Shown: positions 9,111 to 60,793, counted from the stretch's first letter. The stretch: DNA of 60,793 nt from Candidatus Baltobacteraceae bacterium (GCA_036489885.1 DASXEW010000002.1:96111-156903); one strand, 5' to 3'. Made by a program: numbers and translations. The notes: a model not told the origin generated them from the sequence alone.

Positions 9111-9175
9111 CAACTACTTACCCTACCTGACCTGGTTATCGGCCGAAGCCCGGGCGCACCTCAGTCTGGGATATC

Positions 9176-42217: not shown

Positions 42218-43272
42218 GTTTTTGGAGGGGCCGTCGCGTCTTCCTCACCGGCCACACCGGTTTCAAGGGAAGTTGGATGGCTCTGCTCCTGTGCGAGCTC
42301 GGCGCCGACGTTACCGGTTACGCCCTCGCGCCCGAGACGCGACCATCCGCATACGAGTTGCTCCGCATAGGTGAGCGCGTCCGCGAAGAGATCGGCGATA
42401 TTCGTGACGGGGAACGCCTAGGGCGGGCGGTCGCTGCGGCACGACCGCAAATGATCGTGCACATGGCGGCGCAGCCGCTTGTACGCCGCAGTTTCCACGA
42501 GCCCATCGACACGCTTACGACCAACGTGCTCGGTACAGCGCTTCTCTTGGAAGCCATCCGGAAAACGCCGTCGGTCGAAAGTGTTGTTGTCGTCACCTCG
42601 GACAAAGTCTATGCGAATAAAGAACCGCGTGCGATGCGCGAGAACGATCCGCTCGGTGGCGACGATCCATACAGCGCGAGCAAAGGCTGCGCCGAGATCG
42701 TCACTGCATCGTATCGTGCATCCTATTTCGGAGACGGAGTACATCTTGCGACGGCGCGCGCCGGCAACGTTATCGGCGGCGGCGATTGGAGCGAAGATCG
42801 CTTGATCCCCGATCTCGTGCGTGCAGCCACGAGCGGCAAGCCCGCGGTGCTACGCTATCCCGCAGCAGTCCGTCCGTGGCAGCACGTCGCCGACGTTGTC
42901 GCCGGCTACGCGCTTCTCGCGCAGCGGTTAAGCGCCGATCGCGCGCTCGCGCGCGCTTGGAATTTCGGCCCCGCCGCCGGCGCCAACGTTTCCGTCGGCA
43001 TGTTAGCAGAACGCTTTCTTGCTCGCTACGATAGCGCGTGCCGCCTCGAGCTCGAGGCGCCGGCGTTTACGGAAAAGACATTTCTTGCGCTCGACTCCAG
43101 CGCCGCCCGAGCAGAGTTGGAATGGACACCGCACTTCGATTTCGAGGCCGCGGTCGCCGCAACGGCCGATTGGTACGCGGCCTGGCGCGGCGGCGACGAT
43201 CTACGCGCCCTTACGCGTGCGCAACTGTCGTTGCCGTGCGCTCAGAACCGCGTTGCGCTCGCTTCCCGCTAA
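42214..43272 (+). CDS. rfbG: CDP-glucose 4,6-dehydratase
   Basis: 352 aa; makes CDP-4-keto-6-deoxyglucose. GRRVFLTGHTGFKGSWMALLL is the RfbG-specific NAD motif; HMAAQPLVRRS, VVVVTSDKVYANKE, active-site YSASK and ARAGNVIGGGDWSEDRLIPD are all diagnostic. GTG start overlapping the upstream stop (GTGA). The last 62 bases, encoding a tail beyond the usual end, overlap the opposite-strand aminotransferase gene. Confidence 0.96.
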   Translation: MSFWRGRRVFLTGHTGFKGSWMALLLCELGADVTGYALAPETRPSAYELLRIGERVREEIGDIRDGERLGRAVAAARPQMIVHMAAQPLVRRSFHEPIDTLTTNVLGTALLLEAIRKTPSVESVVVVTSDKVYANKEPRAMRENDPLGGDDPYSASKGCAEIVTASYRASYFGDGVHLATARAGNVIGGGDWSEDRLIPDLVRAATSGKPAVLRYPAAVRPWQHVADVVAGYALLAQRLSADRALARAWNFGPAAGANVSVGMLAERFLARYDSACRLELEAPAFTEKTFLALDSSAARAELEWTPHFDFEAAVAATADWYAAWRGGDDLRALTRAQLSLPCAQNRVALASR

Positions 43273-45039: not shown

Positions 45040-46275
45040 TCATTCGTGAACGACCGTGCGCGGTATCGCGGTGACGAACCGCCCGCCCCAATCGCGGATG
45101 AAACTCATTTGGTCGGCGATCTCGTCTTGCAGGTTCCAGGGCAAGATCAACACGTAGTTCGGTTTCGTTTCGGCGATATGCGTGACGGCATGAATCGGAA
45201 TGTGCGTACCCGGCAAATAACGTCCGACTTTGTGCGGATTACGATCGACGGTATAGTCGATGAAATCGCCTCGAACGCCGCAGTAGTTGAGCAGTGTATT
45301 GCCCTTGGCCGGCGCGCCGTAACCGGCGACCGAGTGTCCGGCGCGTTTCGCTCCGATCAGAAATTCGAGCAAGGCATGTTTGCATTGCATCACCGAGGTC
45401 GAGAACTGCTCGTACGTGTGCACGCGATCCAGACCAGCAGCGATCTCGCGTGCGATCAATTCCGCAACGCGCGGAGTCGGAGCTTTGGCCAAATCGGCCC
45501 GCATCGCCCAGACGCGCAGCGATCCACCGTGCGTGGAGATTTCTTCGACGTCGACGACGGTTAAGCCGTGTTCAGCAAACATGCGTCGCACGGTCGTTAG
45601 ACTCAAGTACGAAAAATGCTCGTGATAGATCGTATCGAATTGGCAGCGTTCGATCAAATTCAAGAGGTGCGGAAACTCGACGGAGATCATTCCGCCCGGT
45701 TTGACGGCGAGCGCCAAGCCACCGACGAAATCGCGCAAGTCCGGAACGTGCGCGAGCACGTTGTTTCCGACCAAGAGATCAGCCGCGTAGCCCTCTTCTA
45801 CTAAACGTTTCGCGCTCTCGACCCCGAAGAATTCAACGCGCGTCGGAATGCCTTCGCCCAGCGCCGCTTCCGCAACGTTCCCGGCCGGCTCGATCCCGAG
45901 CACGCCGACGCCGCGATCGCGAAACCACCGCAACAAATAGCCGTCGTTCGAGGCAACTTCGAGCACGAAATGTTTCGAGCCGAGTGAAAGCCGGTCGATC
46001 GCCACATCCGCAAAACTCTTCGCGTGCTCGAGCCAGGTCGACGAATATGACGAAAAATATGCGTAGTCGCCGAAGATCGCTTGCGGCGACGCAAACGCCT
46101 CGAGCTGCACGAGAAAGCAGTTTTCGCAAACGTATGCCCGCAGCGGATAGAACGATTCCATCTTCTGCAACTCGCCCTCAAAAAGAAAACGATTAGCGAG
46201 CGGCGACATCCCCAAATCGACGAAGACCACACGCAATTGGGCACGGCAAAACCTGCACACAGGGCTGTGAGCCAT
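45040..46275 (-). CDS. Sugar C-methyltransferase (TylC3/NovU-like)
   Basis: 411 aa: zinc region CRFCRAQ and CENCFLVQ, MSPLANRFL, SAM loop FVLEVASNDGYLLRWFRDRG (near 105), GNNVLAHVPDLRDFVGGL, FDTIYHEHFSYLS (near 220), THGGSLRVW and the C-terminal VAGYGAPAKGNTLLNY with VDRNPHKVGRYLPGT. This is the complete family pattern, closer to consensus than the copy at 5777-7045. It probably methylates a carbon next to the keto group of the CDP-linked intermediate. Confidence 0.92.
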   Translation of the reverse strand: MAHSPVCRFCRAQLRVVFVDLGMSPLANRFLFEGELQKMESFYPLRAYVCENCFLVQLEAFASPQAIFGDYAYFSSYSSTWLEHAKSFADVAIDRLSLGSKHFVLEVASNDGYLLRWFRDRGVGVLGIEPAGNVAEAALGEGIPTRVEFFGVESAKRLVEEGYAADLLVGNNVLAHVPDLRDFVGGLALAVKPGGMISVEFPHLLNLIERCQFDTIYHEHFSYLSLTTVRRMFAEHGLTVVDVEEISTHGGSLRVWAMRADLAKAPTPRVAELIAREIAAGLDRVHTYEQFSTSVMQCKHALLEFLIGAKRAGHSVAGYGAPAKGNTLLNYCGVRGDFIDYTVDRNPHKVGRYLPGTHIPIHAVTHIAETKPNYVLILPWNLQDEIADQMSFIRDWGGRFVTAIPRTVVHE

Positions 46276-46374: not shown

Positions 46375-47373
46375 ATGTCAAGGGCCTTCCAACGCTTCGG
46401 TCTCGAGAGAGATCCGTTTCTCGATACCTCTGATCCGCATTTCTTCTGGGAGATGCCGGCAGTCGCGCGAGCCAAGGCCAAGCTGCTCTCGTCCATCGAC
46501 GAGTCGCGTGGCCTCACGGTCGTGATCGGCGATCCGGGCTCCGGGAAGACAAGCCTCGCGCTTGCGGTCGAGACTACCCTTCTCGTACGGGACGATGTCC
46601 TGTTGGGAAAGATTCTTGACCCGCACTTTACGAGCGAGACCGAATTCTTGCTCGCCGTCGGTCGCGCGTTCGGCCTCGGTTTGCCCGCGAGAACGCCCGC
46701 ATTCCTTAAGAACGCGCTGAAGAACTTTCTCTTTGATACGGCCGTTCTCGAGAGCCGCACCGTCGTTCTGTTTTTCGACGAGGCGCAAACGCTGGCTCCC
46801 GAGAGCATCGAGACGCTCCGTCTTCTTCTGAACTTTGACATCCCGCAGCGCAAGCTCATCAATCTCGTCCTGTTCGGACAGAGCGAGCTTGAGCCGCGGA
46901 TTCTCGGGCAACGCAATCTCTACGACCGCGTCGACGGCTGGATCCGTCTGGGACCGCTTGACGAACAGGCCGCCCGGGCGCTGATCCTTCACCGCTTGGT
47001 GCGGGCCGGCGCTCGCGACCCGCAATCGATCTTCACCGAGGGTGCCCTTGATATCGTCGTACGCGCGGCAGCCGGACTTCCGCGCCGCCTGATTCGCGTC
47101 GCACGCGGTGCGATGGAAGAGGCCGCAGCCCACGGCCAAAGCCGAGTTTTCGAAGAGCAGGCGCTCCTTGCAGCCCGCGACCGTGGCCTGGCCGTCACGC
47201 GCCGCGATATCGCGCCGCCGCCAACTCTGGTCGAGCGCGCGCCGCTGCCGATTCCAGAGCCCGTCCCGGTCGTCGCCGGTGGAATTCCCGAGGCGCGCAT
47301 TCCGGTCACGGAATCAGGCCGCCGGATCGGGGGCTTCATGCGGTTTTTCAACACGCGGCGGATAGGCGTCTAG
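46375..47373 (+). CDS. ExeA-like AAA ATPase
   Basis: 332 aa. An N-terminal FGLERDPFLDTSDPHFFW motif is typical of GspA/ExeA-type ATPases; Walker A GDPGSGKTS (near residue 53), Walker B VVLFFDEAQTL (near 133), sensor region LVLFGQSELEP and the lid domain with GLPRRLIRVA follow. The protein lacks the peptidoglycan-binding domain of ExeA and ends in a proline-rich tail. ExeA proteins assist assembly of secretion or surface structures through the cell wall. It is followed without a gap by an unknown protein gene. Confidence 0.82.
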   Translation: MSRAFQRFGLERDPFLDTSDPHFFWEMPAVARAKAKLLSSIDESRGLTVVIGDPGSGKTSLALAVETTLLVRDDVLLGKILDPHFTSETEFLLAVGRAFGLGLPARTPAFLKNALKNFLFDTAVLESRTVVLFFDEAQTLAPESIETLRLLLNFDIPQRKLINLVLFGQSELEPRILGQRNLYDRVDGWIRLGPLDEQAARALILHRLVRAGARDPQSIFTEGALDIVVRAAAGLPRRLIRVARGAMEEAAAHGQSRVFEEQALLAARDRGLAVTRRDIAPPPTLVERAPLPIPEPVPVVAGGIPEARIPVTESGRRIGGFMRFFNTRRIGV

Positions 47374-48753
47374 ATGGATTACGAGGCGCTATCACAGAGC
47401 GCCGAACGGCGCTTACTCGAGCATCGCCGCCGTGAGCTTGGTGCTTCCCCGTCGGCCGTTACCACGAACGCCACCTGGAGCCGCACCCGCGAGAGCCCAA
47501 CCTCGATGGCCCCTGCGGCGACGATCGATCGCAACGGAGCGCGGCTCGACGTCGCGGTCACGGCGTGGCCGGCGGACGGACTCGTTCCGGGAGCGGTCGT
47601 GACGGTTACGATCGTCCTCAACAACGGCGGCATCGAAAACGCCGACTCCATCACCGTCGCGGCCCCGATCCCCTCGGGATGCGCCTATCGGACCGGTTCT
47701 CTCAAACACGACGGACGTGACGCTGACGACAGCACCGATGCGCTCTTCGGCGAGGGGCTCAAAATCGGCCGCATCGTCGCCGCCGGACGCAACGCGATCA
47801 CATGGAAGCTGGACGTCCTCGCGGGCACCACCGACATCATCGTTTCACCCAGCGTGCAGGCTGCTGTTCCCATTGTCGCCGCACGTCCACTGGTTCTGAA
47901 ACGCGGCAAAATGTCGGGCGCCTTTCGCACCGACGTCGCGGAAGCCGTGTCGCGCCTCGACCGCGTCCCCACCACGCACGAAGACGTCGAAGCGCCCTTC
48001 TACGAGCTTACGACCGAAGAAGAAATTCAAGAGACCGCGATACTCAGCGCGATCTCGACCTCGCCCGCGCCGCCGGTCGTCGAACCGGCTCCGATCGCGC
48101 CGCCGCGCGAAAGGTTGTACCGTACGCTTCGTCCGGGAGATTTAAGCTTCGTCGAGCGTTTGCTCGAAGCGCCGCTCGGGCTCTTGCCGCATTTCGTTTT
48201 CACGAATCTGCTCGCCGTTGCAACCGCCGGGGACGGAAGCGATCCGCTTGGTCTTGCGGCGTTCATCGATCGCGAAGCTGCGCTGCTCGGACGACTGAAA
48301 GTCGCAGCCCGCTTAGGAAAGCCGCTTCCGCTCGAGGAGACCACGGGCTCGCCACCGGCGCTCGAGATCGATCACGCAATGCTTCGTTTCGTCGATCCGC
48401 AATCGACTCGCATTTCGGGCGCCGCACTTCTGAGCGCGCCACTCGACGCGCAGCGTCTCACTGAAGCCCGCAACGCGTACGATCGGCCCCTGGCACGCTG
48501 GCTTGCGCTTCGTCTCGTAACGCTGACATTCTGCGCGCAAGGGCTGGCCGACGATAGTGGGCCTGCCGCTGCAGCCGTCAAATCCGCATTGAACGCGTAC
48601 GCTCTGCAAGCGCGCCTTGCATTCGTTGCGTTCGGAACGCGCATGAAACTCGATCGCCGCCTGGATCCGACTCGTGCCGCAACAACGCAGCTCGACGCGG
48701 CGGCTCGCGCAGTTATCGAGGCGATCAGAGGGACGATCACCGAGAGCGAGTGA
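47374..48753 (+). CDS. DUF11-like/unknown protein coupled to the ExeA-like ATPase
   Basis: 459 aa beginning directly after the ExeA stop. Residues about 55-175 look like a DUF11/CARDB-type beta sandwich (VPGAVVTVTIVLNNGGIENAD, NAITWKLDVLAG), usually a cell-surface module, yet there is no signal peptide. The C-terminal half is helical (LSFVERLLEAPLGLLPHFVF and an alanine-rich region from 340) and I do not recognise it. Its job probably relates to the ATPase partner. Confidence 0.7.
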   Translation: MDYEALSQSAERRLLEHRRRELGASPSAVTTNATWSRTRESPTSMAPAATIDRNGARLDVAVTAWPADGLVPGAVVTVTIVLNNGGIENADSITVAAPIPSGCAYRTGSLKHDGRDADDSTDALFGEGLKIGRIVAAGRNAITWKLDVLAGTTDIIVSPSVQAAVPIVAARPLVLKRGKMSGAFRTDVAEAVSRLDRVPTTHEDVEAPFYELTTEEEIQETAILSAISTSPAPPVVEPAPIAPPRERLYRTLRPGDLSFVERLLEAPLGLLPHFVFTNLLAVATAGDGSDPLGLAAFIDREAALLGRLKVAARLGKPLPLEETTGSPPALEIDHAMLRFVDPQSTRISGAALLSAPLDAQRLTEARNAYDRPLARWLALRLVTLTFCAQGLADDSGPAAAAVKSALNAYALQARLAFVAFGTRMKLDRRLDPTRAATTQLDAAARAVIEAIRGTITESE

Positions 48754-49517
48754 GGCTTCTTCTCGGCTTACCGTCCGCGGGGTCTCCGACTGCACCGTTT
48801 CTTGAAAGCCTCGCCGCCTTGGTCTTACCGCCGGGCTGCGTCGATTTCGATCGATGTCTGGTTGCCGGCAACTTCATTCCGGCGCAACGCGAACTGCTCT
48901 TTGACGAAGCACTCTCACGCGGTTTCGAGGTGCTTGCAATGATCGACGATGACATTCAGTTTCCACCCGACGCGCTCGCTCAGATGGTCAGCGCGCTCAA
49001 CGAAGATGCCCAGACTGCCCTAGTCGGCGCGCTCTATTATAGCCGCGACGGACTGCGTCCGATGGCCGTCGACAATTGGTCCGGAGAGGACACGACGACT
49101 GCGCTTATCCCGGCATTCGATGACTCGGCCGTCGTCGTCGACGGTGTCGGATTCGGTTGCGTCGTGATTCGGCTTTCAGCGGTGGCCGCGTTATCGCGTC
49201 CATTTCTCTCCGCGCACATCTTCGTGCAACGCAAAGCCCGGCGCGTATGGGTCGCCGACGAGGACTATCTCTTCTGCGAACGGCTTCGCGGGGCGGGGCA
49301 CCGCGTGCGGCTTCACGCCGGCGTACGTTGCCGGCACTTCGACCGGAAGAGCCAGCAATTCGCTCCCGCGCAGTGGGAGGATCCTAGCGTTACTGCTCGG
49401 CCGCGTATGTACGTGCAAACGCCGAGCGGCGAAGCCTTGATCGCAGCTGACGAGTCGTTACCGCGCGGTAACGAAGAGCATCGCGCGGTGACGTTTGACT
49501 ATCTAAGCGTGGAGTAG
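48750..49517 (+). CDS. GT-A-like glycosyltransferase
   Basis: 255 aa. The N-terminal GLPSAGSPTAPFLESLAAL and VLAMIDDDIQFPPDALAQMV (DxD-containing strand) with ADEDYLFCERLRGAGHRVR suggest a GT-A transferase of GT2-like type; CRHFDRKSQQF is near the end of the fold. The GTG start overlaps the preceding stop (GTGA). It finishes two bases before the convergent FliT-like gene. Substrates unknown; located between the sugar cluster and the filament genes. Confidence 0.72.
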   Translation: MRLLLGLPSAGSPTAPFLESLAALVLPPGCVDFDRCLVAGNFIPAQRELLFDEALSRGFEVLAMIDDDIQFPPDALAQMVSALNEDAQTALVGALYYSRDGLRPMAVDNWSGEDTTTALIPAFDDSAVVVDGVGFGCVVIRLSAVAALSRPFLSAHIFVQRKARRVWVADEDYLFCERLRGAGHRVRLHAGVRCRHFDRKSQQFAPAQWEDPSVTARPRMYVQTPSGEALIAADESLPRGNEEHRAVTFDYLSVE

Positions 49518-49518
49518 T

Positions 49519-49896
49519 CTACTGCGTCTTCGAAAATAGCACGGGCGAGGGGCCCATGCCGCGCCGCGCCGAGCGCGCCGCATCTTTCCATTTGCGCGTG
49601 ATTTGCAAACGGCGGCTGACCTCGGTTCGATACGAGTTGAGCCTCCGAATCTGGTCGTTGCGAAGCGTGAATATCGCCTGCAAACGGCCGAAGACGTCCG
49701 GCATCGTTTGAACCGCTGCGTTTTCAGCCGCAAGCTCGTTGACGATGGCCTGACGCGTACGGCGTTGATCCGAGATGAATCGCTCGAGCGCTTGCCATTG
49801 CCGGCCCCGAAGCGCGACTTCGGCCTGCGCGCATTGCTCTTCGAACTCGTCCAAAAGCACCGCGAGGCGCTCGCTAAGCGGTCGTTGCGAACTCAT
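49519..49896 (-). CDS. FliT/FlgN-like flagellar export chaperone candidate
   Basis: 125 aa, almost entirely helical (SERLAVLLDEFEEQCAQAEVAL, then ERFISDQRRTRQAIVNEL), with a basic C terminus. Its place directly after fliS, overlapping it by 23 bases, is where fliT or a small flagellin-export chaperone normally occurs. Sequence similarity to FliT is weak, so the call rests on position and helical character. Confidence 0.55.
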   Translation of the reverse strand: MSSQRPLSERLAVLLDEFEEQCAQAEVALRGRQWQALERFISDQRRTRQAIVNELAAENAAVQTMPDVFGRLQAIFTLRNDQIRRLNSYRTEVSRRLQITRKWKDAARSARRGMGPSPVLFSKTQ

Positions 49897-50305
49897 CGCC
49901 GAGCTCCTCTCCGCCTGCGGCTTGTTGCTTGCGCCATTCCTTGATTGCCTCCGCCCACGTTTTGCGATAGTCGATGATGTCGGGAAGAATTTTCTCGATG
50001 CGCGTCGGGTCTTGTTCCATGTTCCCGCGCACCAGCTCGCGATGCCAGTATGCGTACACGAGGTTCAGGTTCGTCGCGAGGTCACCGCCGAGATCGAAAT
50101 TGAGCGAGGAAATCAGCTCGATGCACGCACGCTGCGCCCGCAGCAAGAGATTGTGTATCGTCTGGATGTCTCCCGGATCGTTGTAAAGACGATCGACGGC
50201 TTGACGAGCGAACATGATCAACGCGTCGTAAACGCGCAGAATCAGCTCCTCTTTCGGAGCCGTCGTTAGAGACGTCTCGAGATACTTGAGCTCTTGCGGC
50301 GTCAC
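49874..50305 (-). CDS. fliS: Flagellar export chaperone FliS
   Basis: 143 aa. PKEELILRVYDALIMFARQAVD and the second-helix region RAQRACIELISSLNFDLGGDLATN followed by LNLVYAYWHRELV are FliS signatures (ISELxxSLD followed by LxxLYxYM). FliS binds the C terminus of flagellin to prevent premature polymerisation. It sits four bases after fliD and before the FliT-like gene. Confidence 0.95.
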   Translation of the reverse strand: MTPQELKYLETSLTTAPKEELILRVYDALIMFARQAVDRLYNDPGDIQTIHNLLLRAQRACIELISSLNFDLGGDLATNLNLVYAYWHRELVRGNMEQDPTRIEKILPDIIDYRKTWAEAIKEWRKQQAAGGEELGDEFATTA

Positions 50306-50309
50306 GAGA

Positions 50310-52637
50310 TCAGCTCGAGGTCGACGACGTCGAGGACGTTCCGAGGATGCTCGAGAGCGATGCCTGCTCTTGCTGCAGCTGCGCGATCATCGTCTCCGAC
50401 GCCGTGAACTGCGCGCGTAGCTGGTTGGCCTGCGCCGTCGCCTGATCGTTGACCGATTCAATCTGCTGATTGATCGAGTCGATCTGCGCCGAGTTCGTGT
50501 TCTCGATTCCTTGCAGCAACGATACGTCCGGCGCATTGCCGAGGAAGTTGCCGTTCGGGCCGAGTTGCGTCGGTGAGCCCGTGACATATGTAAGATACGT
50601 GCCGAGCTGCGAAAGTATGCCGCTCGTGCCGGTGAACATGCTCTGCACTGCGGCCGGGTTTGCTGCCATGGCTGCATCAAACGTTACGGCATCGAGTGCT
50701 TGTAGTTTTCCACTCGTTCCATCGAACGTCTGGGTCGAGAGTCCGCCGGTGTCGTCCGAATCATTCGAGTCGCCAGAGCCGGAAGTCGAGTCGCTCGTGA
50801 TAACCGCAATGCTCGAGTCGAGCAAAAGGCCGATTGAAGCAAACGAGTTATACGACGACGATCCCGTTTGGGTGAGCCCTGAAACGAGATTGGTAAGCTG
50901 ATCCTTCAGTTCTTGAACTGAGGAGTTGTCAAACAGCACGCCGCCCGGGACGACTTGACTGGAAGTCGCCGTGCCGGACGTTAAGGGCGTACCCGGAGCT
51001 TGCGTCTGGACGACCGGCGGCGTCGTTGAGCTGTTGATCTCATTGATCGCAGCGTTGTACGTCGATACGAACGTGTTGATCGCGCTGATGAGGTTCGTAT
51101 TGCTGGCCGCGACCGTAACGGTGTAAGGATTCGCGGACGTCGTGCTCTGCTGCAGTGTCAGCGTCACGCCCGGAATGATGTTCGTGATCGCATTGCTGTT
51201 GCTGTAGATCGTCGCTGTTCCGCCGGACGCTGTCTGATACGTAACCGAGGCCTGCTGGCCCGTTTGCGTCGTCGCTCCTGCTGTTGTCAGGCCGAAGGCT
51301 TGGAGGAAGTTGCTCGTGTCGTTCGGCGAGCCCAGGACGATGCTTTGGGGTCCGGTCGCTTTGGCAACGAGCTGCAGCTGACCGGCCGTCGTGTTCCACG
51401 CAGCGGTAACGCCAGCATTCGAGGCGTTGATCATGTTGATCACGTCTTGCAGGTTCATCGTCGCCGGATTGATCGTGAACGCAACGCCGTTGATGCTAAA
51501 CGTCGTCCCGCTGTTGAGCGCCGTCGTGCTGTTGGCGAGATTCAGCGAAACGTTCGGATTGATACCGCCGACCGGTGCTGACGACGTGACCGATTGATAG
51601 GTCGTCGCAGCTCCCATTCCACCGTTGAAGCCGAGCATGAAGCTGCCGGCGTCACCGTTGCTGTCGTTGATCGTCAGCGCCGCGCCGGTGGTCGTCGCGA
51701 TGACGAGATTCCCACCCTGAATCGAAGCACTCAACCCGCTAACCGCGTTGATTGAGTTCATCAGCTGCTGGACGGTCTCGCCGCTGTTGTAGGCGATAGC
51801 GTTCCCGTTGATCGTCAGCGTACCGGTTGCGTCGGTCGCGCCGTCGCCGCCGAGCGTATCAGTTGCCGTCACGCCGCCGGTCGTCGAAGTGCTTTCTTGA
51901 CCCCCGACGATCTGGGCAGTGTCGAGCTTGAAGATTTGCTCGAGGTTTCCGGAATCCGATGCCGAGCCGAGCGAGAGCGGGCTGCCGGTCGACGTAATCG
52001 TCAACTCGTCGTTTTGGAAGCTCGCCTTGATGCCGCTGATGCCGTTCAGCATCGAGACGATCGAGGTTGCGGGAAGAGCGCCGTTGACCGTATCGGTGCC
52101 GGCGTCGTACGAAAGCTGCGTGCCGTTGACGGTAAATTTTCCGCCTGAGCTTCCGGAGCCGTTGCTCGGCGTGATCTGGAATCCGGCATTGGTGAGCGTC
52201 TGAGTGACGTCGACAGCCTTGTTCGCCGCCGAGTCGCTCGAGAGCTGCGTCGAGGTCGCAAGCGTTTGCGACAGAATCGTCGTCGTGCCGGGCTGAGGCG
52301 TCTGGCCCGAAATCTGTTGCGCCGATGCGAAGGCCCCATTGCTAACGGTCGCAGCAAACGAATTGAACAGGGAGGGATCGCCGAGCTGCATGATCGCTTG
52401 CTGGACCTGTTGGACCAACCCGCTGATCTTGAGTAGCTCTTTGTTTGCAGACGCGAGCGTGCTGCTCTCGGCAGTCAACGGCTGGTTTTGTGCCAGCGTG
52501 AGCGAGGTCAACTTCTCGATAATTGCGTTGTAGTCGATACCCGAAGCGATACCGGGGAACGAAATCGGCGCAGCGTTGCCGAGCGTTCCGGTCTGGGTCG
52601 AACTCGTAGATGAGCCGACGCCTGAAAGTCCTGACAT
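50310..52637 (-). CDS. fliD: Flagellar filament cap protein FliD (HAP2)
   Basis: 775 aa, larger than the 470-aa enteric protein. FliD_N begins PISFPGIASGIDYNAIIEKLTSL and the C-terminal domain has SSVQELKDQLTNLVSG, AVTFDAAMAANPAAVQSMF and a coiled coil (NSAQIDSINQQIESVNDQA) ending in FTASETMIAQLQQEQASL. The extra central part has repeated GTLTINGNAIAYN-like beta modules. GGAGG at 52647-52651 with 9-base spacing supports the ATG. It caps the growing filament. Confidence 0.95.
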   Translation of the reverse strand: MSGLSGVGSSTSSTQTGTLGNAAPISFPGIASGIDYNAIIEKLTSLTLAQNQPLTAESSTLASANKELLKISGLVQQVQQAIMQLGDPSLFNSFAATVSNGAFASAQQISGQTPQPGTTTILSQTLATSTQLSSDSAANKAVDVTQTLTNAGFQITPSNGSGSSGGKFTVNGTQLSYDAGTDTVNGALPATSIVSMLNGISGIKASFQNDELTITSTGSPLSLGSASDSGNLEQIFKLDTAQIVGGQESTSTTGGVTATDTLGGDGATDATGTLTINGNAIAYNSGETVQQLMNSINAVSGLSASIQGGNLVIATTTGAALTINDSNGDAGSFMLGFNGGMGAATTYQSVTSSAPVGGINPNVSLNLANSTTALNSGTTFSINGVAFTINPATMNLQDVINMINASNAGVTAAWNTTAGQLQLVAKATGPQSIVLGSPNDTSNFLQAFGLTTAGATTQTGQQASVTYQTASGGTATIYSNSNAITNIIPGVTLTLQQSTTSANPYTVTVAASNTNLISAINTFVSTYNAAINEINSSTTPPVVQTQAPGTPLTSGTATSSQVVPGGVLFDNSSVQELKDQLTNLVSGLTQTGSSSYNSFASIGLLLDSSIAVITSDSTSGSGDSNDSDDTGGLSTQTFDGTSGKLQALDAVTFDAAMAANPAAVQSMFTGTSGILSQLGTYLTYVTGSPTQLGPNGNFLGNAPDVSLLQGIENTNSAQIDSINQQIESVNDQATAQANQLRAQFTASETMIAQLQQEQASLSSILGTSSTSSTSS

Positions 52638-52737
52638 TAGTTAGGACCTCCGAGCGTAAATAGGAAATTCAGCCTGAACACGTCCATGTAAAAAAGGGTC
52701 CCTCCTAGAGATATATCGGACAGGCTGCATCTACATT

Positions 52738-54735
52738 TTACAGCGCAACGAGTTGCTCCCGCCGTTCGAGAGCCTGGACGTACCCGACGACGATGGAGCG
52801 TGTGACCTCGCGCACGTCAGCTCGCTCGCTGAAACCCGCGCGAATTCCCTCGAATTTCCCAGCTTCTTCCTGACGGCGGTACCAAGCATTACCAAAACCT
52901 CGCGCGATGCTTTCGACATCCCCAGGATCGACGACGCAGAGAAATTCACCGGCGCCGAGATCGACGGCCGGAAGCCGCGCTGAGATCGCCAGGCCCGCGC
53001 CTCGTGAAACCGCTCGAGCGGCACGCGCGAGTCCACAACCAACCCAAGCGACGTCGACGTAAACCGCTGCCCCGCGATAAAGACCCTCGAGGGTCGCGGC
53101 GTCCGGCTCGCCCAAGACGACCGTCCGGTCGCCGGCGAAGGAGCGCACGAGCGAGGCGTATCCCGCGTCTGCTATCGGTCCGGCGAGTACGAGTGGAAGC
53201 TCGGCGATCTGCGCTGCGCGAACGGCTTGAATTTGATTTTGCGTCGACTCGAACGGCGCGTGCAGCAACAAGTACGGTTCGCTGCCGACGAGCGCGTCGA
53301 TCGCGGCCGCCTCTAATGCCGGCATAACGGGCGGTGGAACGCTGAAGATTTCGGTCTGAACGCCGAAGTTTCGAATCGCCTCGAGCTCGTCGTCGCCACC
53401 AACGTAGATGGCATCGGAGGCGCGAAGCACCGCACGAACCTCATCTTCCCAACGTGCGTTGGTCGGATGAAACGGCATCCCCCAAACGATCTCGTTGAGC
53501 GCAAGCCGCCGATCCCGCATCAGTCCGAGCAGATGCGCAACGCTGGCTTCATCTTGGTTGAAACGATAACAATACGGCGTCACCGTCGCGCCCCAGTATC
53601 CGCCAAGTCCGGCTGCATCGTACAAGGGATGGATTGCGAAGGGAATGCCGCGCGATGCGGCCGCACGCTGAGCGGCAGCTGCTGCGCCCGCATCCGCGAG
53701 TCCGATCGCGTGGATTAGATCGGGCTGGAACTCCGCGATCTCGTTCAAATCATCAACGACGCCAGCCGTAAAGCCTTCGTCACGCATCGCACTCGCGATC
53801 GCCTCGGCGTGATCGACGTCGGCGCCGCCGAATCGTCGCGCGCCGCGCCGCAGCACGAACAGAATTCGCCCAGTCGAACCGCCGACCGCGTCGCGTGCGG
53901 GCAAATTCGGCTCGGGCAGCGACCGCGGCGAACGTACCTCGACTGAGAAGGCTGAATCAGCGCCGGAGATCTGCGTGAAATCGAGGAGACTATCGAGCGG
54001 AATCGACTCCGCAACCGCGATGCGGAAACCGTCGCTCGCGCAATCCAGGTCGATCACGACGCGGGCTTCACGTGCCTCGGAATTTGCACGATGCTCGCCG
54101 TCAACGATCAGGACGTCGGAATCCGCCGGTTCGATCGCCGGTCCGTACCACGCGATCCCGAGAGCGTCGTCGCCCTCGATCCGTACGCGGCGCGCATAAC
54201 TCGCAAGCAACGTCGCTCCAAGGGCAGCGTCGCGTGAAGCGATCACGACGTCGCGGCTGCGAATGAGCCGCCGTGCGTAGACAAACGGTGCGGCACGACG
54301 CGCGACGTCTTCGAGCGGCGCGGCACCGAGGAAACCGGCCTCGCGCGCGCGCATGAAGCGCGCTTCTTCCGATTCGTCACCGAATATCTTCCAGGTTTCG
54401 CGCGTACAACTTCCCTGCGCGAGCAGCTCCGCGAGCCAGGGCTCGACGCGCGCAGCAATTGCGGCGTCGTCGATACCGGATGAACGAATCGATTCCGGCC
54501 ATACGAGCGGATCGCGTTCGCGTGCTTCGAGCATCGCAACGTCAACGACGATACACGCCACGCTCGCGTGCTTGCCTTCGCGCGAAAAGTGCAGATCGAG
54601 CGTCGCGCTGCCTTTGTCACCACGCAAGACCGGCTCGAACCGCGCCGCGACGAGCGTCTCGGGGGCTGCGATCTCCGCAATGGGCGCACTGCCGAAGCAG
54701 ATCGCGAGCTCATGGTGCGTCAGGTGATATCTCAT
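52738..54735 (-). CDS. GT-B (GT4-like) glycosyltransferase with long N-terminal region
   Basis: 665 aa from the ATG at 54735 that overlaps the previous stop (ATGA). Residues 1-280 are of unknown fold. The C-terminal half is a GT-B transferase: FVLRRGARRFGGADVDHAEAIA, ADAGAAAAAQ, LLLHAPFESTQNQIQAV, VVLGEPDAATLEGLYRGAAVY and VDLGAGEFLCVVDPGD correspond to the GT4 nucleotide-binding domain. Lies between fliD and flagellin genes, in one operon with two other glycosyltransferases. Confidence 0.8.
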   Translation of the reverse strand: MRYHLTHHELAICFGSAPIAEIAAPETLVAARFEPVLRGDKGSATLDLHFSREGKHASVACIVVDVAMLEARERDPLVWPESIRSSGIDDAAIAARVEPWLAELLAQGSCTRETWKIFGDESEEARFMRAREAGFLGAAPLEDVARRAAPFVYARRLIRSRDVVIASRDAALGATLLASYARRVRIEGDDALGIAWYGPAIEPADSDVLIVDGEHRANSEAREARVVIDLDCASDGFRIAVAESIPLDSLLDFTQISGADSAFSVEVRSPRSLPEPNLPARDAVGGSTGRILFVLRRGARRFGGADVDHAEAIASAMRDEGFTAGVVDDLNEIAEFQPDLIHAIGLADAGAAAAAQRAAASRGIPFAIHPLYDAAGLGGYWGATVTPYCYRFNQDEASVAHLLGLMRDRRLALNEIVWGMPFHPTNARWEDEVRAVLRASDAIYVGGDDELEAIRNFGVQTEIFSVPPPVMPALEAAAIDALVGSEPYLLLHAPFESTQNQIQAVRAAQIAELPLVLAGPIADAGYASLVRSFAGDRTVVLGEPDAATLEGLYRGAAVYVDVAWVGCGLARAARAVSRGAGLAISARLPAVDLGAGEFLCVVDPGDVESIARGFGNAWYRRQEEAGKFEGIRAGFSERADVREVTRSIVVGYVQALERREQLVAL

Positions 54736-56555
54736 GCGAGCGCTACGGCGTCGCGAGCCGGAACGTAATCCGGCCGCGTCTTCCACTTGTCACTGAAGAT
54801 GCGTGCGTTGCGCGCTTCATCTTGCGGATCGCCCAGCAACGCTTCGGCCATCTCACGCTCGAAGTGATGCAGAAACAGATCGTCGGCAACATATACTTCG
54901 TATCCGGCACGCCGGACGCGCAGGCTCAAGTCTTCGACCCCAAAGCGTCCCGCGCCGAGTTTCGGATCGAAGCCACCGACGGACTTGAGCGCACGCGCAT
55001 CGATCGCGAAATCGAGTGCTGTAAGACCGTCCGTCAATTTTGCATCGCGTGCCATCGTTGCACGGCGTTGCTCCGCGAGCGCCTTGAACGCTTTGATGTC
55101 TGCATACGCCAGATCGACGCACTGCGAGCCTTGGACGAAAACAGAGCTGAACCCGAGCATACCCATCTCGGGCCTGAGCCCGAATGCTTCGCGTACGATG
55201 TCGAACCAGCCGGGCGGCGGATAGAAATCGTCGCCGATGACGATGACGATCTCGCCGGTCGAGCGCGCCAACGCGGTGTTGATGCCTTTGGCCATGCCGC
55301 GCGACTCGTCGACGAGCACGTCGAGCGTCGCATGCGCTTTCAAAAGTGCGATCACGTCGGGCTTCGCGGCGCTAACCACCGCATGGTAATCGACATCCAG
55401 CTGACCGCCATAGATACCTTCAAACGACGTGCGGTGAATGTCGGCACGCGCATGCGCAACCATGACGATCGAGAGCTTTCGACCGGCCGGCGCGCGCGGT
55501 CCGAGCAATCGGTCAACGGCGCGCACCACCGAAGCTTCGTGCTGCGGCGGGTTCATATCAAACGGAATGCGTGAGACGGCCAGCAGTGCGCAACTTTCCT
55601 CGCGCACGCCGCGAACGTTCGGCCGTGACTCTAGCTGGACGAGCATCCGCTCGAGCCAACCGGCAGGCGGCGTTTTGGTGGAGTCGACAAGCGCGACATA
55701 ACGATCGGCGCGCGAGCCGAGCGCATCGCGCAACGCCTTCATCGAACGCGGATCCTCACCGCGTGCATCGGTAATGCTGACGCGCTGTGCGCGTATCGTC
55801 GAGCGAAGCGCGTTCGGCGAAAGCGGACCGTCGCCGTAAAGAATGACTTCCGTCGCCGGCAACGCGACCATGACGACCTCGCGTTGGCCCAGTGCCGTCC
55901 GCACCGTTCGTCGAATTGCGCCGCGTACGGGAGTTTCCAGATCGAAACGCGGCGCGAGCGCGTTGCTCCAGCGGCGAATGAAATTCCGGCGGTCGACCGC
56001 CTCGATGGGGCGAACGACGCCGATCTCCACGGAAAACGTTAGGCGTGGATCCCAGCGCACGCTCTTACCGGTGGCTCGCATGCGCATGCACAGATCGTAG
56101 ACCCGCCACGGTGTCTCGAGCTTCGGATCGATTCCGCCGACCTCGATGAGAGCGGCACGATCGACGAGATAGACTCCCGGGCAAACGACGTCGATCGCGT
56201 TACGCTGCGGCTGCTGCAAAGCATTTTTTCCGCGCGGATCGATAAGAGGGAACGGCTCGACATCATACGGTCCGAATCGGACCGAAGCGAAAACCGCACC
56301 AAAGCGCCGAGTGCCGTCCGCCTCGAGCTGGCAGCCGCCGAGGATTCCACCGTCGGCGTTGAGGCTCAGTGCGGCTGCATATGTGTTGGGTCCGGCGTAA
56401 CCTTGTGGCTCCACGACCAGCAGCTGCCGTGCATCGACTGCAGCCACTGCGGCAAGCACGTTTTCCGGACTGCTTTCGAACACCGGCATGTCGCGCGGAA
56501 CGCTTCGTCGTGACGAGAGGTTCGGCGCACCGAGAAACAGGACCGCAACGTCCAT
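54732..56555 (-). CDS. GT2-like glycosyltransferase with two related domains
   Basis: 607 aa from the ATG at 56555, one base after the previous stop. The first half holds VFLxDRAA-like VCPGVYLVDRAALIEVGGID and a duplicated GT fold; the second half (about 375-607) has IVMVAHARADIHRT, VLVDESRGMAKGINTALARS, EIVIVIGDDFYPPPGWFDI with a DD motif, and SVGGFDPKLGAGRFGVEDLS, a GT2 signature including the ED. A probable protein-linked or glycan sugar transferase beside flagellin genes. Confidence 0.82.
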   Translation of the reverse strand: MDVAVLFLGAPNLSSRRSVPRDMPVFESSPENVLAAVAAVDARQLLVVEPQGYAGPNTYAAALSLNADGGILGGCQLEADGTRRFGAVFASVRFGPYDVEPFPLIDPRGKNALQQPQRNAIDVVCPGVYLVDRAALIEVGGIDPKLETPWRVYDLCMRMRATGKSVRWDPRLTFSVEIGVVRPIEAVDRRNFIRRWSNALAPRFDLETPVRGAIRRTVRTALGQREVVMVALPATEVILYGDGPLSPNALRSTIRAQRVSITDARGEDPRSMKALRDALGSRADRYVALVDSTKTPPAGWLERMLVQLESRPNVRGVREESCALLAVSRIPFDMNPPQHEASVVRAVDRLLGPRAPAGRKLSIVMVAHARADIHRTSFEGIYGGQLDVDYHAVVSAAKPDVIALLKAHATLDVLVDESRGMAKGINTALARSTGEIVIVIGDDFYPPPGWFDIVREAFGLRPEMGMLGFSSVFVQGSQCVDLAYADIKAFKALAEQRRATMARDAKLTDGLTALDFAIDARALKSVGGFDPKLGAGRFGVEDLSLRVRRAGYEVYVADDLFLHHFEREMAEALLGDPQDEARNARIFSDKWKTRPDYVPARDAVALA

Positions 56556-56556
56556 G

Positions 56557-58623
56557 TCAGGCCGTCGCCATTGCCTCGCTGGCCACGCCGCTGGCTTCCG
56601 CATAGCGGCCTTGCCGCAACATCAAGGCTGCGAGCTCGACGCCAACGCGCTTGCGTCCCACCCCCATCGCAGAACGCAGCATCGTTTCGGCGGGAAGCAT
56701 TTGTCCCAAAGCCTCGAGGAGTCGCGCACGTAACAGGAGCGCGTCCTCATGAACCGGCGCCTCTCCGAAGACTTCGTCGAGAACCCGGAGGGCGTCGTCG
56801 AGGTTTCCTTTGCGCTCCATAAGCGATGCGCGCAAGAAGGTTGCCGTCTCGACGACTCTCCGTTCACCGATTCGCGCCATTCCGAGCATGTGGATTGCGC
56901 GATCCGTCTCGCCATCGACCTGCGCGAGCGCGAGGCCGAGATTGAATCGCAAAGCGGCGTTGTTCGGGGATTTAATCAGCCCTTCTTCGGCGACGACGGC
57001 TGCTTCCGCAACGCGCCCCTCTTCCAATAGGCGATGCGAGCGCCGCAAGAAATCGTCCGCGGCAACGAGCGGCGCTTCGAATTCGTCGCGCCGCAACCGC
57101 GCTACGGCGACCTCGTCTCCCTGCTCGCGATAGATTTCCTCGAGCATCCCCAGCGCAAGCCCGTTCCCGGGAGCGCGCTCTAGCGCCGTACGCAGATACG
57201 GCACCGGATCGGCCGACTTGGCACGCCGCACGATAATCGCTGCGGCAACGTTAAGCGATGAAGTCATTTGCTCGTCGACGCGCTCGAGCGCCTCTTCAAT
57301 CACTTCGAGCGCGCGTGTCATGCGCTGACGGCGCACGAGATAATTTACATAGGCCGTGATGGTTTGGTCGTTCTTCTCGCGTTCGAACGCTCCGCGAAGC
57401 ACGATCTCAGCATCGAAGTAGCGTTTGCAGGTCTCGAAGACCCACGCCAGGCGCTCCTGTACCATCCAAATGTCGGGCTTGTTGCGCTGGGCTTCTTCGA
57501 GCCAGGGAATCGCCTCTTCGAACTTGTTCTCATTCAAGTACGTGGCGGCGATATTGGATTGCGCCTTCCAGAGCGAAATTTCTTCGTCGACGACGCTGTA
57601 TCGATCTTCGAGTCCTTTGGTTGCGATGGCTTTCTTGAACCACTCGCGCGCGTCCTCAAATCGTCCGGCTCGCGCTAAGATCTCGGCCTTGCAATAGATC
57701 GCAAGAACGTAGCCGGGCGCGCGCTCCAGACATTCGTCAATCGTCGCCAAAGCGCGCTCGAAATCGTTGCGCTGAGAGGCGTAGGCTCCCGCCAAGAACA
57801 CGTAGCCGAGTGGAATGTAGCCGCGCATGTCCTTGCCGCGCTCCATCTCGACCATGCGTTCCATGGTCTTGATGCCCTCGTCGTACTGATCGTGGCCCAG
57901 CAAGTAGTTCGCGTAATTGAACCAAGAGAATGAGTCTTCAGGATTTTCAATCGTCGCGCGCTCCAAGAGAGGCGCGTTGCGATCGTCCTTCTTCTTCGCG
58001 CCGATGATCTCGAGCGTGTAGCCCCGGTGCAGAATGCGGATCGGCGAGATGACGGCGGTCGCCTTCGTCTCACCTTCATCGACGACGAGCGTCTCATGAA
58101 TCAGGCCGCGATAGCGGATGCGCGACGTCGTCGGAAAGATGCGCGGAAGGCTGTGCGACATCATCGTCGACGCACCGTACTCGGTCGTGTCGTTATGAAT
58201 GCGGCAGTAGAGCACCGTCAGGAATGACGGGACCGTCCGCAAGTCGAGAAGCCGCCGGCGCGATTCGGGAGCGATCTCTTCATCGCCGTCCAGAACCAGC
58301 GTCCAGCGCTTGGTCGCCATCCCGAGCGCCTCGTTGCGGGCCCATGAGAAGTCGCTACGCCACTCGCGGTGCTCGATTCTGGCGCCGAATTTGGCCGCGA
58401 TCTCCAGCGTCCGGTCCGTCGAGCCGGTATCGATGATGTTGATCTCGTCGACGATCCCCTCGACGCTGCGAAGGCACGCTTCGAGGAAGCGCTCCTCGTT
58501 CTTGACGATCATGCACAGGCTGATCCCCTCAGGAAGCTGCTGATGCTCGTCAGGCGGCTGCGGAATACCAAAAAGCAGGGTCGGCGCTTCGGCCTCTGCG
58601 GGGCGTGACGAATCGGTGGCCAT
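56557..58623 (-). CDS. GT2 glycosyltransferase with C-terminal TPR repeats
   Basis: 688 aa. N-terminal GT2 domain of the SunS/waaE-like kind (ISLCMIVKNEERFLEACLRS, INIIDTGSTDRTLEIA, WTLVLDGDEEI with DxD-like acids, PRIFP), then from about 235 at least ten helix-turn-helix units such as IDECLERAPGYVLAIYCKAE and FEEAIPWLEEAQRNKPD. The TPR half probably binds the protein acceptor, a layout seen in flagellin/protein glycosyltransferases. GAGG lies seven bases before the ATG. Located next to flagellin. Confidence 0.87.
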   Translation of the reverse strand: MATDSSRPAEAEAPTLLFGIPQPPDEHQQLPEGISLCMIVKNEERFLEACLRSVEGIVDEINIIDTGSTDRTLEIAAKFGARIEHREWRSDFSWARNEALGMATKRWTLVLDGDEEIAPESRRRLLDLRTVPSFLTVLYCRIHNDTTEYGASTMMSHSLPRIFPTTSRIRYRGLIHETLVVDEGETKATAVISPIRILHRGYTLEIIGAKKKDDRNAPLLERATIENPEDSFSWFNYANYLLGHDQYDEGIKTMERMVEMERGKDMRGYIPLGYVFLAGAYASQRNDFERALATIDECLERAPGYVLAIYCKAEILARAGRFEDAREWFKKAIATKGLEDRYSVVDEEISLWKAQSNIAATYLNENKFEEAIPWLEEAQRNKPDIWMVQERLAWVFETCKRYFDAEIVLRGAFEREKNDQTITAYVNYLVRRQRMTRALEVIEEALERVDEQMTSSLNVAAAIIVRRAKSADPVPYLRTALERAPGNGLALGMLEEIYREQGDEVAVARLRRDEFEAPLVAADDFLRRSHRLLEEGRVAEAAVVAEEGLIKSPNNAALRFNLGLALAQVDGETDRAIHMLGMARIGERRVVETATFLRASLMERKGNLDDALRVLDEVFGEAPVHEDALLLRARLLEALGQMLPAETMLRSAMGVGRKRVGVELAALMLRQGRYAEASGVASEAMATA

Positions 58624-58680
58624 GATGAACCTCTCTCATAGATTCATCGGAAGCCGCGGCCGCCGGCTTGAGACGGAGCA

Positions 58681-58706
58681 AGCGGGCCCGCCTCAGCGGG
58701 CCCGCT
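58681..58706 (-). terminator. Strong hairpin downstream of flagellin gene 1
   Basis: An 11-bp perfect stem (AGCGGGCCCGC with its complement) and CTCA loop lies 65 bases beyond the flagellin stop. Its core is nearly identical to the hairpin at 60144-60171. No run of U follows, so it may be a weak or Rho-assisted terminator or an mRNA-stabilising 3' stem limiting read-through into the glycosyltransferase operon. Confidence 0.65.
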
Positions 58707-58770
58707 CCGGCTCCTACCCCTTTACGGGCTATCCGTCGACGTGGAAGCCCCGGGTGCGGTCACCGAGATG

Positions 58771-60012
58771 TTACCGAAAGAGCGGCAAAACCGAGTTGGC
58801 GTTCGAGTTGGCTTGCGCCAAAACCGAGGTACCAACTTGCACCAAGATTTGCAGCTTGGTGTATTCGGTCGTCGCCCCTGCGACGTTGAGGTCCGTGATG
58901 TTCGACGCCGACGCGGTCAGATTGACCGCGGCGATGTTGTTGTTGTCCTCGTCCTCGTTCAGCCGGACGACCGTGGCACCGAGGAGTGCCCGCTGATTGA
59001 GGAGCTGGTCTAGGGCGTAGTCGATTTGCCCGATCGCGTCTTCCGCTGCCAGCGTCCCGGAACCCGTACCGATAGAGCCCGCGACGTTGATGTTGGAAAG
59101 ACGAAGTGTCTGGGTGTTGGTAGCTTGGATTCCGATCTGGATCACCGCCCCTTCGTCTGCCCCGTCTTGGATTGTAAACGCGGGGCTATTCGGATTAGAA
59201 GCTGCGCTGACATACTGGGTGACCTTGATATATGACGTGACGCCGACGTCAACCGTACCGATCGAGATACCGGTGGTGACTTGGACGCCGTCGTACGTGA
59301 AGGTGACTGTCGCGCCGCCGGACACCGTCGCGATGCAGACTTGCTGATACCCACTCGTTGCCGTGCTCAGGAACGAGAAGATGACGCCCTGCTGTGTCGG
59401 ACCCAATTGTGCGACTTGCAGTTCGAGCGTCCCGTCCAGTGACGTGTTGTTCGTCACCGAGTACGTCGTACTCGCGATGAGCAGGTTATTGACGCCCGGA
59501 GTGCCTGACGCTGCGCCAAGAACCGAGTTCGAGTAGATAACCGCGTTGAAGTTAATCTGCGGCGTGAAGCCCTCATTTGAGCCACTCAGCAGATATGCTC
59601 CATTGAAGTTGGTGTCTTGCGAGATGCGGTTGACCTCGAGCAATAGCTGCGAGACTTCCGCTTGCAGACTCAACTTGTCGTTGTCCGACGTAACGTCTGA
59701 GGACGCTTCAACTGCTAGGTTGCGAATGCGCTGCAGAATGTCGGTCTCGGTCTGCAGAGCGCCGTCCGCTACGGTCGCCGCGTTGTTCATGTCCTGGACG
59801 TTTTGACTCGCCGTATCGAACGCTTGAGCTTGTGCGTTTAAGCGAGTCGCGATTGCCAATCCCGAGGGATCATCTGCGGCCGTGTTGATCCGGAGACCAC
59901 TCGAAAGTTGCGTTACTACCGTCTGAAGCCGATCCTGGTTGCGATTCAGGTCGAGCGTGACGGCATTGGCAAGTAGGTTGGTAGCAATAGAGAGGCCACC
60001 AATTCCTGGCAT
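58771..60012 (-). CDS. fliC: Flagellin (filament subunit), copy 1
   Basis: 413 aa. N-terminal D0/D1 (NLLANAVTLDLNRNQDRLQ, SSGLRINTAADDPSGLAIA, LQTETDILQRIRNLAVEASS) and C-terminal D1/D0 (AIGQIDYALDQLLNQRALLG, TKLQILVQVGTSVLAQANSN) surround a variable 210-residue middle with a Cys (YQQVCIATVSGG), rare in flagellins. AAGGAGG (60023-60029) 10 bases upstream of the ATG 60012 fixes the start. The middle domain is Ser/Thr-rich, suitable for O-glycosylation. Confidence 0.96.
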   Translation of the reverse strand: MPGIGGLSIATNLLANAVTLDLNRNQDRLQTVVTQLSSGLRINTAADDPSGLAIATRLNAQAQAFDTASQNVQDMNNAATVADGALQTETDILQRIRNLAVEASSDVTSDNDKLSLQAEVSQLLLEVNRISQDTNFNGAYLLSGSNEGFTPQINFNAVIYSNSVLGAASGTPGVNNLLIASTTYSVTNNTSLDGTLELQVAQLGPTQQGVIFSFLSTATSGYQQVCIATVSGGATVTFTYDGVQVTTGISIGTVDVGVTSYIKVTQYVSAASNPNSPAFTIQDGADEGAVIQIGIQATNTQTLRLSNINVAGSIGTGSGTLAAEDAIGQIDYALDQLLNQRALLGATVVRLNEDEDNNNIAAVNLTASASNITDLNVAGATTEYTKLQILVQVGTSVLAQANSNANSVLPLFR

Positions 60013-60022
60013 ATTATCTTTT

Positions 60023-60029
60023 CCTCCTT
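60023..60029 (-). promoter_or_regulatory. Strong Shine-Dalgarno of flagellin copy 1
   Basis: AAGGAGG on the minus strand with 10-base spacing to the ATG, as expected for a very highly translated gene. A second AGGAGG lies directly before another in-frame ATG at 60060 (16 codons upstream) with no spacing, so that site is unlikely to start the protein. Confidence 0.8.
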
Positions 60030-60093
60030 GATCCGCGCCCGCAGTACGAGCACGGAACATCCTCCTAAAGATGTTGCGAAAAGATCTTATTCA

Positions 60094-60122
60094 GTTTTAT
60101 CCGTGGGCTTTTATGTCGTCAA
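60094..60122 (-). promoter_or_regulatory. Candidate promoter of flagellin copy 1
   Basis: Minus strand TTGACG (60117-60122), 17-base spacer, then TAAAAC (60094-60099). It sits about 80 bases upstream of the flagellin ATG, leaving a long 5' leader. No sigma-28 consensus (TAAA/GCCGATAA) was found, so the flagellin may use the housekeeping sigma factor or a divergent flagellar sigma. Confidence 0.4.
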
Positions 60123-60143
60123 CCGCCTCCTTTCGGGACCGAC

Positions 60144-60171
60144 GGGCGAGCCCGCCTCAGCGGGCCCGCCC
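60144..60171 (-). terminator. Hairpin downstream of flagellin gene 2
   Basis: GGGCGAGCCCGC-CTCA-GCGGGCCCGCCC forms a 12-bp stem with one mismatch, starting about 20 bases beyond the second flagellin stop. It shares a 19-base core with the hairpin after flagellin 1, so the 3' regions were duplicated together. Confidence 0.65.
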
Positions 60172-60189
60172 CTCGTTCTTGGTAGATCC

Positions 60190-60793
60190 CTACCTGAACA
60201 GAGCCAAGACGGAGTCCGCGTTGGCGTTAGATTGCGCCAAAACCGACGTTCCGACCTGCACCAAGAGTTGAAGCTTGGTGTATTCGGTGGTCGCCCCTGC
60301 GACGTTGAGGTCGGTGATATTCGAGGCCGAGGCCGTCAGGTTGACCGAAGCGATGTTGTTGTTGTCTTCGTCTTCGTTCAACCGGTTGATCACGGCGCCG
60401 AGCAACGCGCGCTGCGTCAGCAGTTGGTTCAACGCGTAGTCGATCTGACCGATTGCGTCTTCCGCCGCCAGCGTTCCGGAGCCCGTTCCGATGGAGCCCG
60501 CAACGTTAACGTTGGAAAGCCGCAAGGTCTGGGTGTTCGTGGATTGGATTCCGATCTGAATGACCGCGCCTTCGATCGCTCCGTCCTGGACCGTGAAGGC
60601 TGGGTTGTTCGGGTTGGAAGCCGCACTCACGTACTGCGTTATTTTGACATATGACGTAACGCCGACGTCAACCGTACCAATTGAGATACCCGACGTGATT
60701 CCGACGCCGTCGTATGTAAACGTGACGGCGGCACCCGTGGCGCCGATCGTCGCGATACAGACTTGTGAGTATCCGTTGGTGGCGGTGCTCAGG
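60190..60793 (-). CDS. Flagellin, copy 2 (N terminus beyond the window)
   Basis: About 200 C-terminal residues are visible, running to the window edge. It matches copy 1 almost throughout: the Cys-containing SQVCIATI strand, GISIGTVDVGVTSY, then AIGQIDYALNQLLTQRALLG and the terminal QVGTSVLAQSNANADSVLAL. The closely spaced copies are a tandem duplication. The short ORF from the internal ATG at 60630 is only part of this gene. Confidence 0.93.
   Translation of the reverse strand, partial: LSTATNGYSQVCIATIGATGAAVTFTYDGVGITSGISIGTVDVGVTSYVKITQYVSAASNPNNPAFTVQDGAIEGAVIQIGIQSTNTQTLRLSNVNVAGSIGTGSGTLAAEDAIGQIDYALNQLLTQRALLGAVINRLNEDEDNNNIASVNLTASASNITDLNVAGATTEYTKLQLLVQVGTSVLAQSNANADSVLALFR

Follow-up and report, generated by a model that had tools for sequence, protein, structure and literature searches.

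A GmaR-related GT2-TPR transferase between the flagellin and fliD genes of an Eremiobacterota bacterium and its predicted role in flagellin glycosylation

Introduction

Why should a bacterium keep transferase-like genes between its flagellin genes (fliC) and fliD? The question is raised by positions 49,519 to 60,793 of a 60,793-nucleotide stretch of Candidatus Baltobacteraceae bacterium DNA (GCA_036489885.1, DASXEW010000002.1:96111-156903), here called the window, from candidate phylum WPS-2/Eremiobacterota, a largely uncultured lineage. Exactly three large open reading frames (ORFs) lie between fliC and fliD, all transferase-like: a glycosyltransferase family 2 protein with a TPR region (GT2-TPR), a protein with two GT2 domains in tandem, and a GT4-like protein. 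A sequence-only reading of the window had proposed that they glycosylate flagellin, and this is strongly supported by the predicted GmaR-class enzyme, its place behind flagellin, and its gain and loss with the flagellum. As known here from the genes alone, the cassette very probably glycosylates flagellin, with GT2-TPR as the putative enzyme for the first sugar.

The GT2-TPR protein

GT2-TPR has its GT2 domain at residues 35-144 and TPRs from about residue 219 (Pfam). Its closest solved relative is the glycosyltransferase (GT) domain of Listeria GmaR (22ao), matched at E 2.6e-28 by single sequence and E 1.4e-51 by profile, and the profile also matched 7x9r, a GmaR construct that includes the TPR region and that we take, from its length and name, to be the truncated GmaR of PMC9638930 (E 2.6e-28 over chain residues 7-253). 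The GT2 hallmark motifs are invariant across 12 relatives, and among the three cassette proteins of this genome the full motif set is found in GT2-TPR only, which by its motifs is the one clearly competent enzyme of the cassette.

The likeness to GmaR admits another function, namely that GT2-TPR is mainly a regulator that restrains a motility repressor or a chaperone, its transferase activity being minor or lost. GmaR itself is bifunctional (PMC3150276) and the GT2-TPR gene accompanies the flagellum, but the anti-repressor part of GmaR was not found in GT2-TPR, the 7x9r match stopping at residue 253 of 503, and the invariance of every GT2 motif also speaks for catalysis, so that a mainly regulatory protein is very improbable. 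Because the anti-repressor part was not found, GT2-TPR is not filed as a GmaR ortholog; judged from these matches, it is a relative of GmaR and not GmaR itself.

The GT2-TPR profile also matched SunS (E 1e-35), and the flagellins of the window and of the related genome G001 carry a single cysteine, in the middle domain, which together would fit a SunS-like peptide S-glycosyltransferase acting on that residue. The score against the NCBIfam SunS family (TIGR04195) is 87.9 bits, far under its cut-off of 350 bits, and the flagellins of most relatives with the same enzyme are free of cysteine. Cysteine glycosylation is accordingly an extremely remote prospect.

The named records nearest to GT2-TPR are metagenome-assembled genomes of candidate division WPS-2 or Candidatus Eremiobacterota. 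Outside the phylum, filament genes stand within about 10 kb of the homologous gene in at least 29 of 75 loci, which include Paenibacillus, Bacillus relatives, Gemmatimonadetes, Scalindua, Chloroflexi and others; the count is a lower bound because the search depended on proteins from the window. This class of transferase is thus widespread and flagellum-associated, and not peculiar to this genome.

Co-occurrence with flagella

The comparison covered 41 genomes: the source genome (G000), 24 of its genus and family, four of its order and 12 of its class. Flagellin was found in 15 of them and the GT2-TPR gene likewise in 15, with both in 14 (Fisher p 6e-9). On the rpoB tree, flagellin and the GT2-TPR gene change together in 6/6 independent contrasts (p 0.03), with G022 counted as flagellated. 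One exception is G028 (82% complete), which has flagellin without a GT2-TPR gene; the other, G022, is taken up below. G008, a single 3.5-Mb contig, has no flagellin. These distributions strongly support that GT2-TPR has been gained or lost together with the flagellum in this phylum. Gene order is also retained: nine genera share fliC-GT2TPR-GT2x2-GT4-fliD, and the sister family has fliC-GT2TPR-GT2x2-fliD, without the GT4 gene.

This pattern bears on the possibility that the cassette builds an envelope polysaccharide and lies among flagellar genes incidentally. Tandem GT2 and GT4 proteins are frequent in polysaccharide clusters, sugar-nucleotide and GT2 genes occur elsewhere in the window, and other transferase-like genes abut the cassette in G022. 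A position within the filament operon that is kept across those genera, loss together with the flagellum, and a cassette with no flippase, polymerase or sugar-synthesis gene all argue the other way, and an envelope product is very improbable beside flagellin as the acceptor.

The accompanying transferases

In the tandem GT2 protein of G006, G010, G011, G013, G020 and G024, the motifs NND and VVDN/VVDNG are intact in both domains. In the window, G019 and G022, domain 1 is without both motifs and domain 2 retains only the acidic pair; the available part of the G001 gene shows the same loss. Compared with G001, the gene has a dN/dS of about 0.40, where GT2-TPR has 0.19 (dS is near-saturated and the gene partial). 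A pseudogene was considered and rejected, given the open frame and this ratio; by these estimates the gene is under constraint but evolving faster than that of GT2-TPR. The fold model, built from a three-row alignment, is poor (pLDDT 31).

The family profile of the GT4-like protein matched sucrose-phosphate synthase (E 6e-6) and the GT4 structure 2iuy (E 2e-4). Its fold model, also from a three-row alignment, is poor as well (pLDDT 46), and the Foldseek matches are GT-B enzymes, in weak agreement only.

Several observations weigh against glycosylation as proposed. The window's tandem GT2 protein has VEPQ at the acidic motif of domain 1 and GDD in domain 2, so that an intact motif is not present in each domain. 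The GT4-like protein has neither glutamate of the EX7E signature in any of the ten genera aligned. With EX7E absent from that protein and the acidic motif absent from the first GT2 domain, it is doubtful that this genus makes an extended glycan. Serine and threonine account for 25% of residues in the flagellin middle domain as against 13-17% of its ends, and the sequence-only reading was right to call that domain Ser/Thr-rich; the flagellin of E. coli K-12, which to our knowledge is not glycosylated, equals it at 24.6%, and the richness is for that reason no evidence for glycosylation. Finally, the G022 assembly contains the cassette, fliD, fliS and the fliT-like gene yet yields no flagellin; upstream of the cassette, where flagellin should be, stand two small transferase-like ORFs encoded on the opposite strand.

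The three ORFs and their positions stand as first described. As full GT2 motifs occur in GT2-TPR only, the cassette should be read as one GT2 enzyme that appears competent, a remodelled tandem GT2 protein, and a GT4-like protein of unassigned chemistry, so labelled from its GT-B/GT4 profile matches and without the EX7E signature. The last of these, retained although its catalytic glutamates are gone, is a candidate for a pseudo-glycosyltransferase whose role has been conserved.

A fourth, GT2-like transferase, encoded at 48750-49517, carries the acidic motifs IDDD and DED, and its gene tracks flagella, being present in 10/16 flagellated and 1/25 other genomes. In G011 it is located away from the cassette. 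The gene begins just beyond the interval described in the sequence-only reading, which had overlooked it.

Proposed mechanism and possible sugar donors

Flagellin would be glycosylated in the cytoplasm, ahead of export. GT2-TPR would bind it, probably through the TPR solenoid by analogy with FlmG of Caulobacter, and would move a sugar from a nucleotide donor onto presumed acceptor side chains in the middle domain, the likeliest being serine or threonine hydroxyls, as in GmaR. The first sugar could then be extended by the tandem GT2 protein and perhaps by the transferase at 48750-49517, while the GT4-like protein may be a GT-B-fold partner whose chemistry is altered or absent.

Two gene clusters elsewhere in the window had been put forward as donor sources. 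Cluster 1 contains HldE-like and GmhA-like heptose genes (7569-9113 and 19241-19840) and two epimerase/dehydratase genes. HldE and close GmhA orthologs are confined to G000, G001, G019 and G022, the flagellated members of one eight-member rpoB clade (support 91) and also the four genomes with the remodelled tandem GT2 protein. Within this clade the heptose genes follow flagella in 4/4 against 0/4 genomes, which comprise only two to three independent contrasts and are not significant. The coincidence suggests, from two or three independent events, that the glycan has changed in these four genomes. In cluster 2, a glucose-1-phosphate cytidylyltransferase and a CDP-glucose 4,6-dehydratase are both assigned with confidence (38941-39705 and 42214-43272), and the cluster is therefore predicted to make CDP-6-deoxysugars. 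Its co-occurrence was followed by one gene, a C-methyltransferase (45040-46275) present in 9/16 flagellated and 11/25 other genomes (p 0.53), with no link to flagella. The donor proposal thus keeps some footing for cluster 1, whose heptose genes track flagella weakly, and none for the cluster 2 gene tested.

A NeuB/PseI-type synthase was also considered and rejected: the sole weak NeuB-profile match is, as read by eye, an aromatic-pathway enzyme beside an EPSP-synthase-like ORF. The Maf profile PF20157 had no match in this genome, nor in any control genome.

Organization of the locus

The window is the final 60.8 kb of contig C2 (156,903 bp) in a 3.48-Mb genome of four contigs. On the minus strand the genes read fliC, fliC, GT2-TPR, tandem GT2, GT4-like, fliD, fliS and a fliT-like gene (Table 1). 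Alignment and a ribosome-binding site place the likely true start of the complete fliC at 60012. The tandem GT2 gene likely starts at 56555, where stop and start share the junction TGACATG, and the GT4-like gene at 54735, overlapping the tandem GT2 gene in ATGA; these junctions indicate that the three transferase genes are tightly coupled.

Table 1. Features at the filament locus, by position in the window
Feature	Position	Strand	Evidence
Second flagellin (fliC), C-terminal part, cut at contig end	60190..60792	-	Flagellin_C E 5e-16; 68-nt overlap with C3
GC-rich hairpin between the two flagellin genes	60144..60172	-	Fold z -4.0
fliC adjoining the cassette, presumed acceptor	58771..60012	-	Flagellin_N E 7e-35 and Flagellin_C E 7e-15, on ORF 58771-60060
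GC-rich hairpin between fliC and the GT2-TPR gene	58675..58708	-	Fold z -3.9
GT2-TPR protein, GmaR-class	56557..58623	-	GT2 E 2.6e-19 and TPR (Pfam); GmaR GT domain E 1.4e-51
Tandem GT2 protein	54732..56555	-	ORF 54732-56603, GT2 E 6e-6; relatives up to 8e-53
GT4-like (GT-B) protein with N-terminal domain, fold unassigned	52738..54735	-	ORF 52738-54786, weak GT4 match E 0.003
fliD, filament cap	50310..52637	-	FliD_N and FliD_C matches; FliD_C E 6e-33
fliS, flagellin chaperone	49874..50305	-	FliS E 4e-22
fliT-like small gene	49519..49896	-	Place after fliS and retention in relatives; without a confident family match
Fourth GT2-like transferase, convergent with the flagellar genes	48750..49517	+	Glyco_transf_21 E 1e-4

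The hairpin ahead of the GT2-TPR gene is very stable and has a twin after the second fliC. It is a possible attenuator, a role suggested because a cell requires far more flagellin than transferase.

Contigs C2 and C3 both end within flagellin genes, and an exact 68-nucleotide overlap joins them into an intact FliC of 414 amino acids, so the two are probably neighbours in the chromosome; the break is attributed to the repetition of flagellin genes. Most simply, the joined array would read flgN-flgK-flgL-fliW-fliC-fliC-fliC-GT2TPR-GT2x2-GT4-fliD-fliS, followed by the putative fliT, and further fliC copies could be hidden by a collapsed repeat. Another gene with a flagellin domain, divergent in sequence, sits at C1:1015741-1016124, a long way from the filament locus. 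Beyond the fourth transferase, at 46375-48753, an AAA ATPase gene (XrtA/PEP-CTERM-ATPase-like, below the cut-off) and a gene weakly matched to DUF11 adjoin the flagellar locus in most flagellated relatives.

A hook-linked paralog

Within about 1,951,300-1,954,460 of C3, a second GT2-TPR gene (C3:1952943) begins about 20 nucleotides after flgE, which belongs to a fliG-fliI-fliK-flgE operon. G019 repeats the order fliG-fliI-fliK-flgE-GT2TPR, and G001 has the flgE-GT2TPR pair. Since the paralog stands right behind flgE, the hook may be modified too, and the protein is a candidate hook glycosyltransferase that would modify FlgE if active. Hook-linked GT2-TPR enzymes were not seen in a targeted literature search, with most subscription papers outside its reach. 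More tentatively, and on balance doubtfully, the flagellum of this lineage could have two dedicated GT2-TPR paralogs, one for the filament and one for the hook, each glycosylating its own type III export substrate, with a donor that in this clade is perhaps the cluster 1 heptose and a tandem GT2 protein remodelled to suit. Because the two paralogs share their architecture but differ in their neighbours, the flgE-linked one would make it possible to test cleanly what governs acceptor choice in such enzymes.

Comparison with known systems

Read from genes alone, glycosylation by a cassette that would work like a GmaR-type cytoplasmic flagellin glycosylation system is largely supported. In Listeria monocytogenes, GmaR puts N-acetylglucosamine on flagellin by its GT domain (PMC9638930), and its C-terminal part relieves MogR repression (PMC9638930, PMC3150276). 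In GmaR and the cassette enzyme alike, TPRs come after an N-terminal GT2 domain that carries the same motifs; both are linked to the flagellum, with flagellin as the proposed acceptor. The cassette enzyme differs in having no anti-repressor match, a longer TPR region, and an operon with further transferase-fold proteins. The reading would bring GmaR-type glycosylation of flagellin into a phylum in which the first member grown in culture, Vulcanimicrobium alpinus (3.50 Mb), has no flagellin gene and was not seen to have flagella (PMC9758169), and it makes the transferase a near-constant companion of the flagellum in Eremiobacterota.

SunS is homologous to GT2-TPR across about 280 residues of the GT2 domain, whereas the cassette enzyme falls far under the family cut-off, lies in a flagellar locus, and has no conserved acceptor cysteine. 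In FlmG of Caulobacter the TPR part binds flagellin (PMC7591256), and TPR and transferase parts are likewise joined in one cytoplasmic protein with flagellin as the acceptor. FlmG has its TPRs first and a GT-B transferase, unlike the present order of GT-A (GT2) first and TPRs second, and it uses pseudaminic acid; a NeuB-type synthase was not found in this genome.

The closest published layout is the flagellin glycosylation island of Geobacillus (PMC5109656), in which GT2 and GT4 genes also stand beside flagellin within the filament locus. Those islands differ from strain to strain and include maf genes and genes for sugar synthesis, whereas the genes between fliC and fliD here are all transferase-like, and they are retained in nearly all flagellated relatives.

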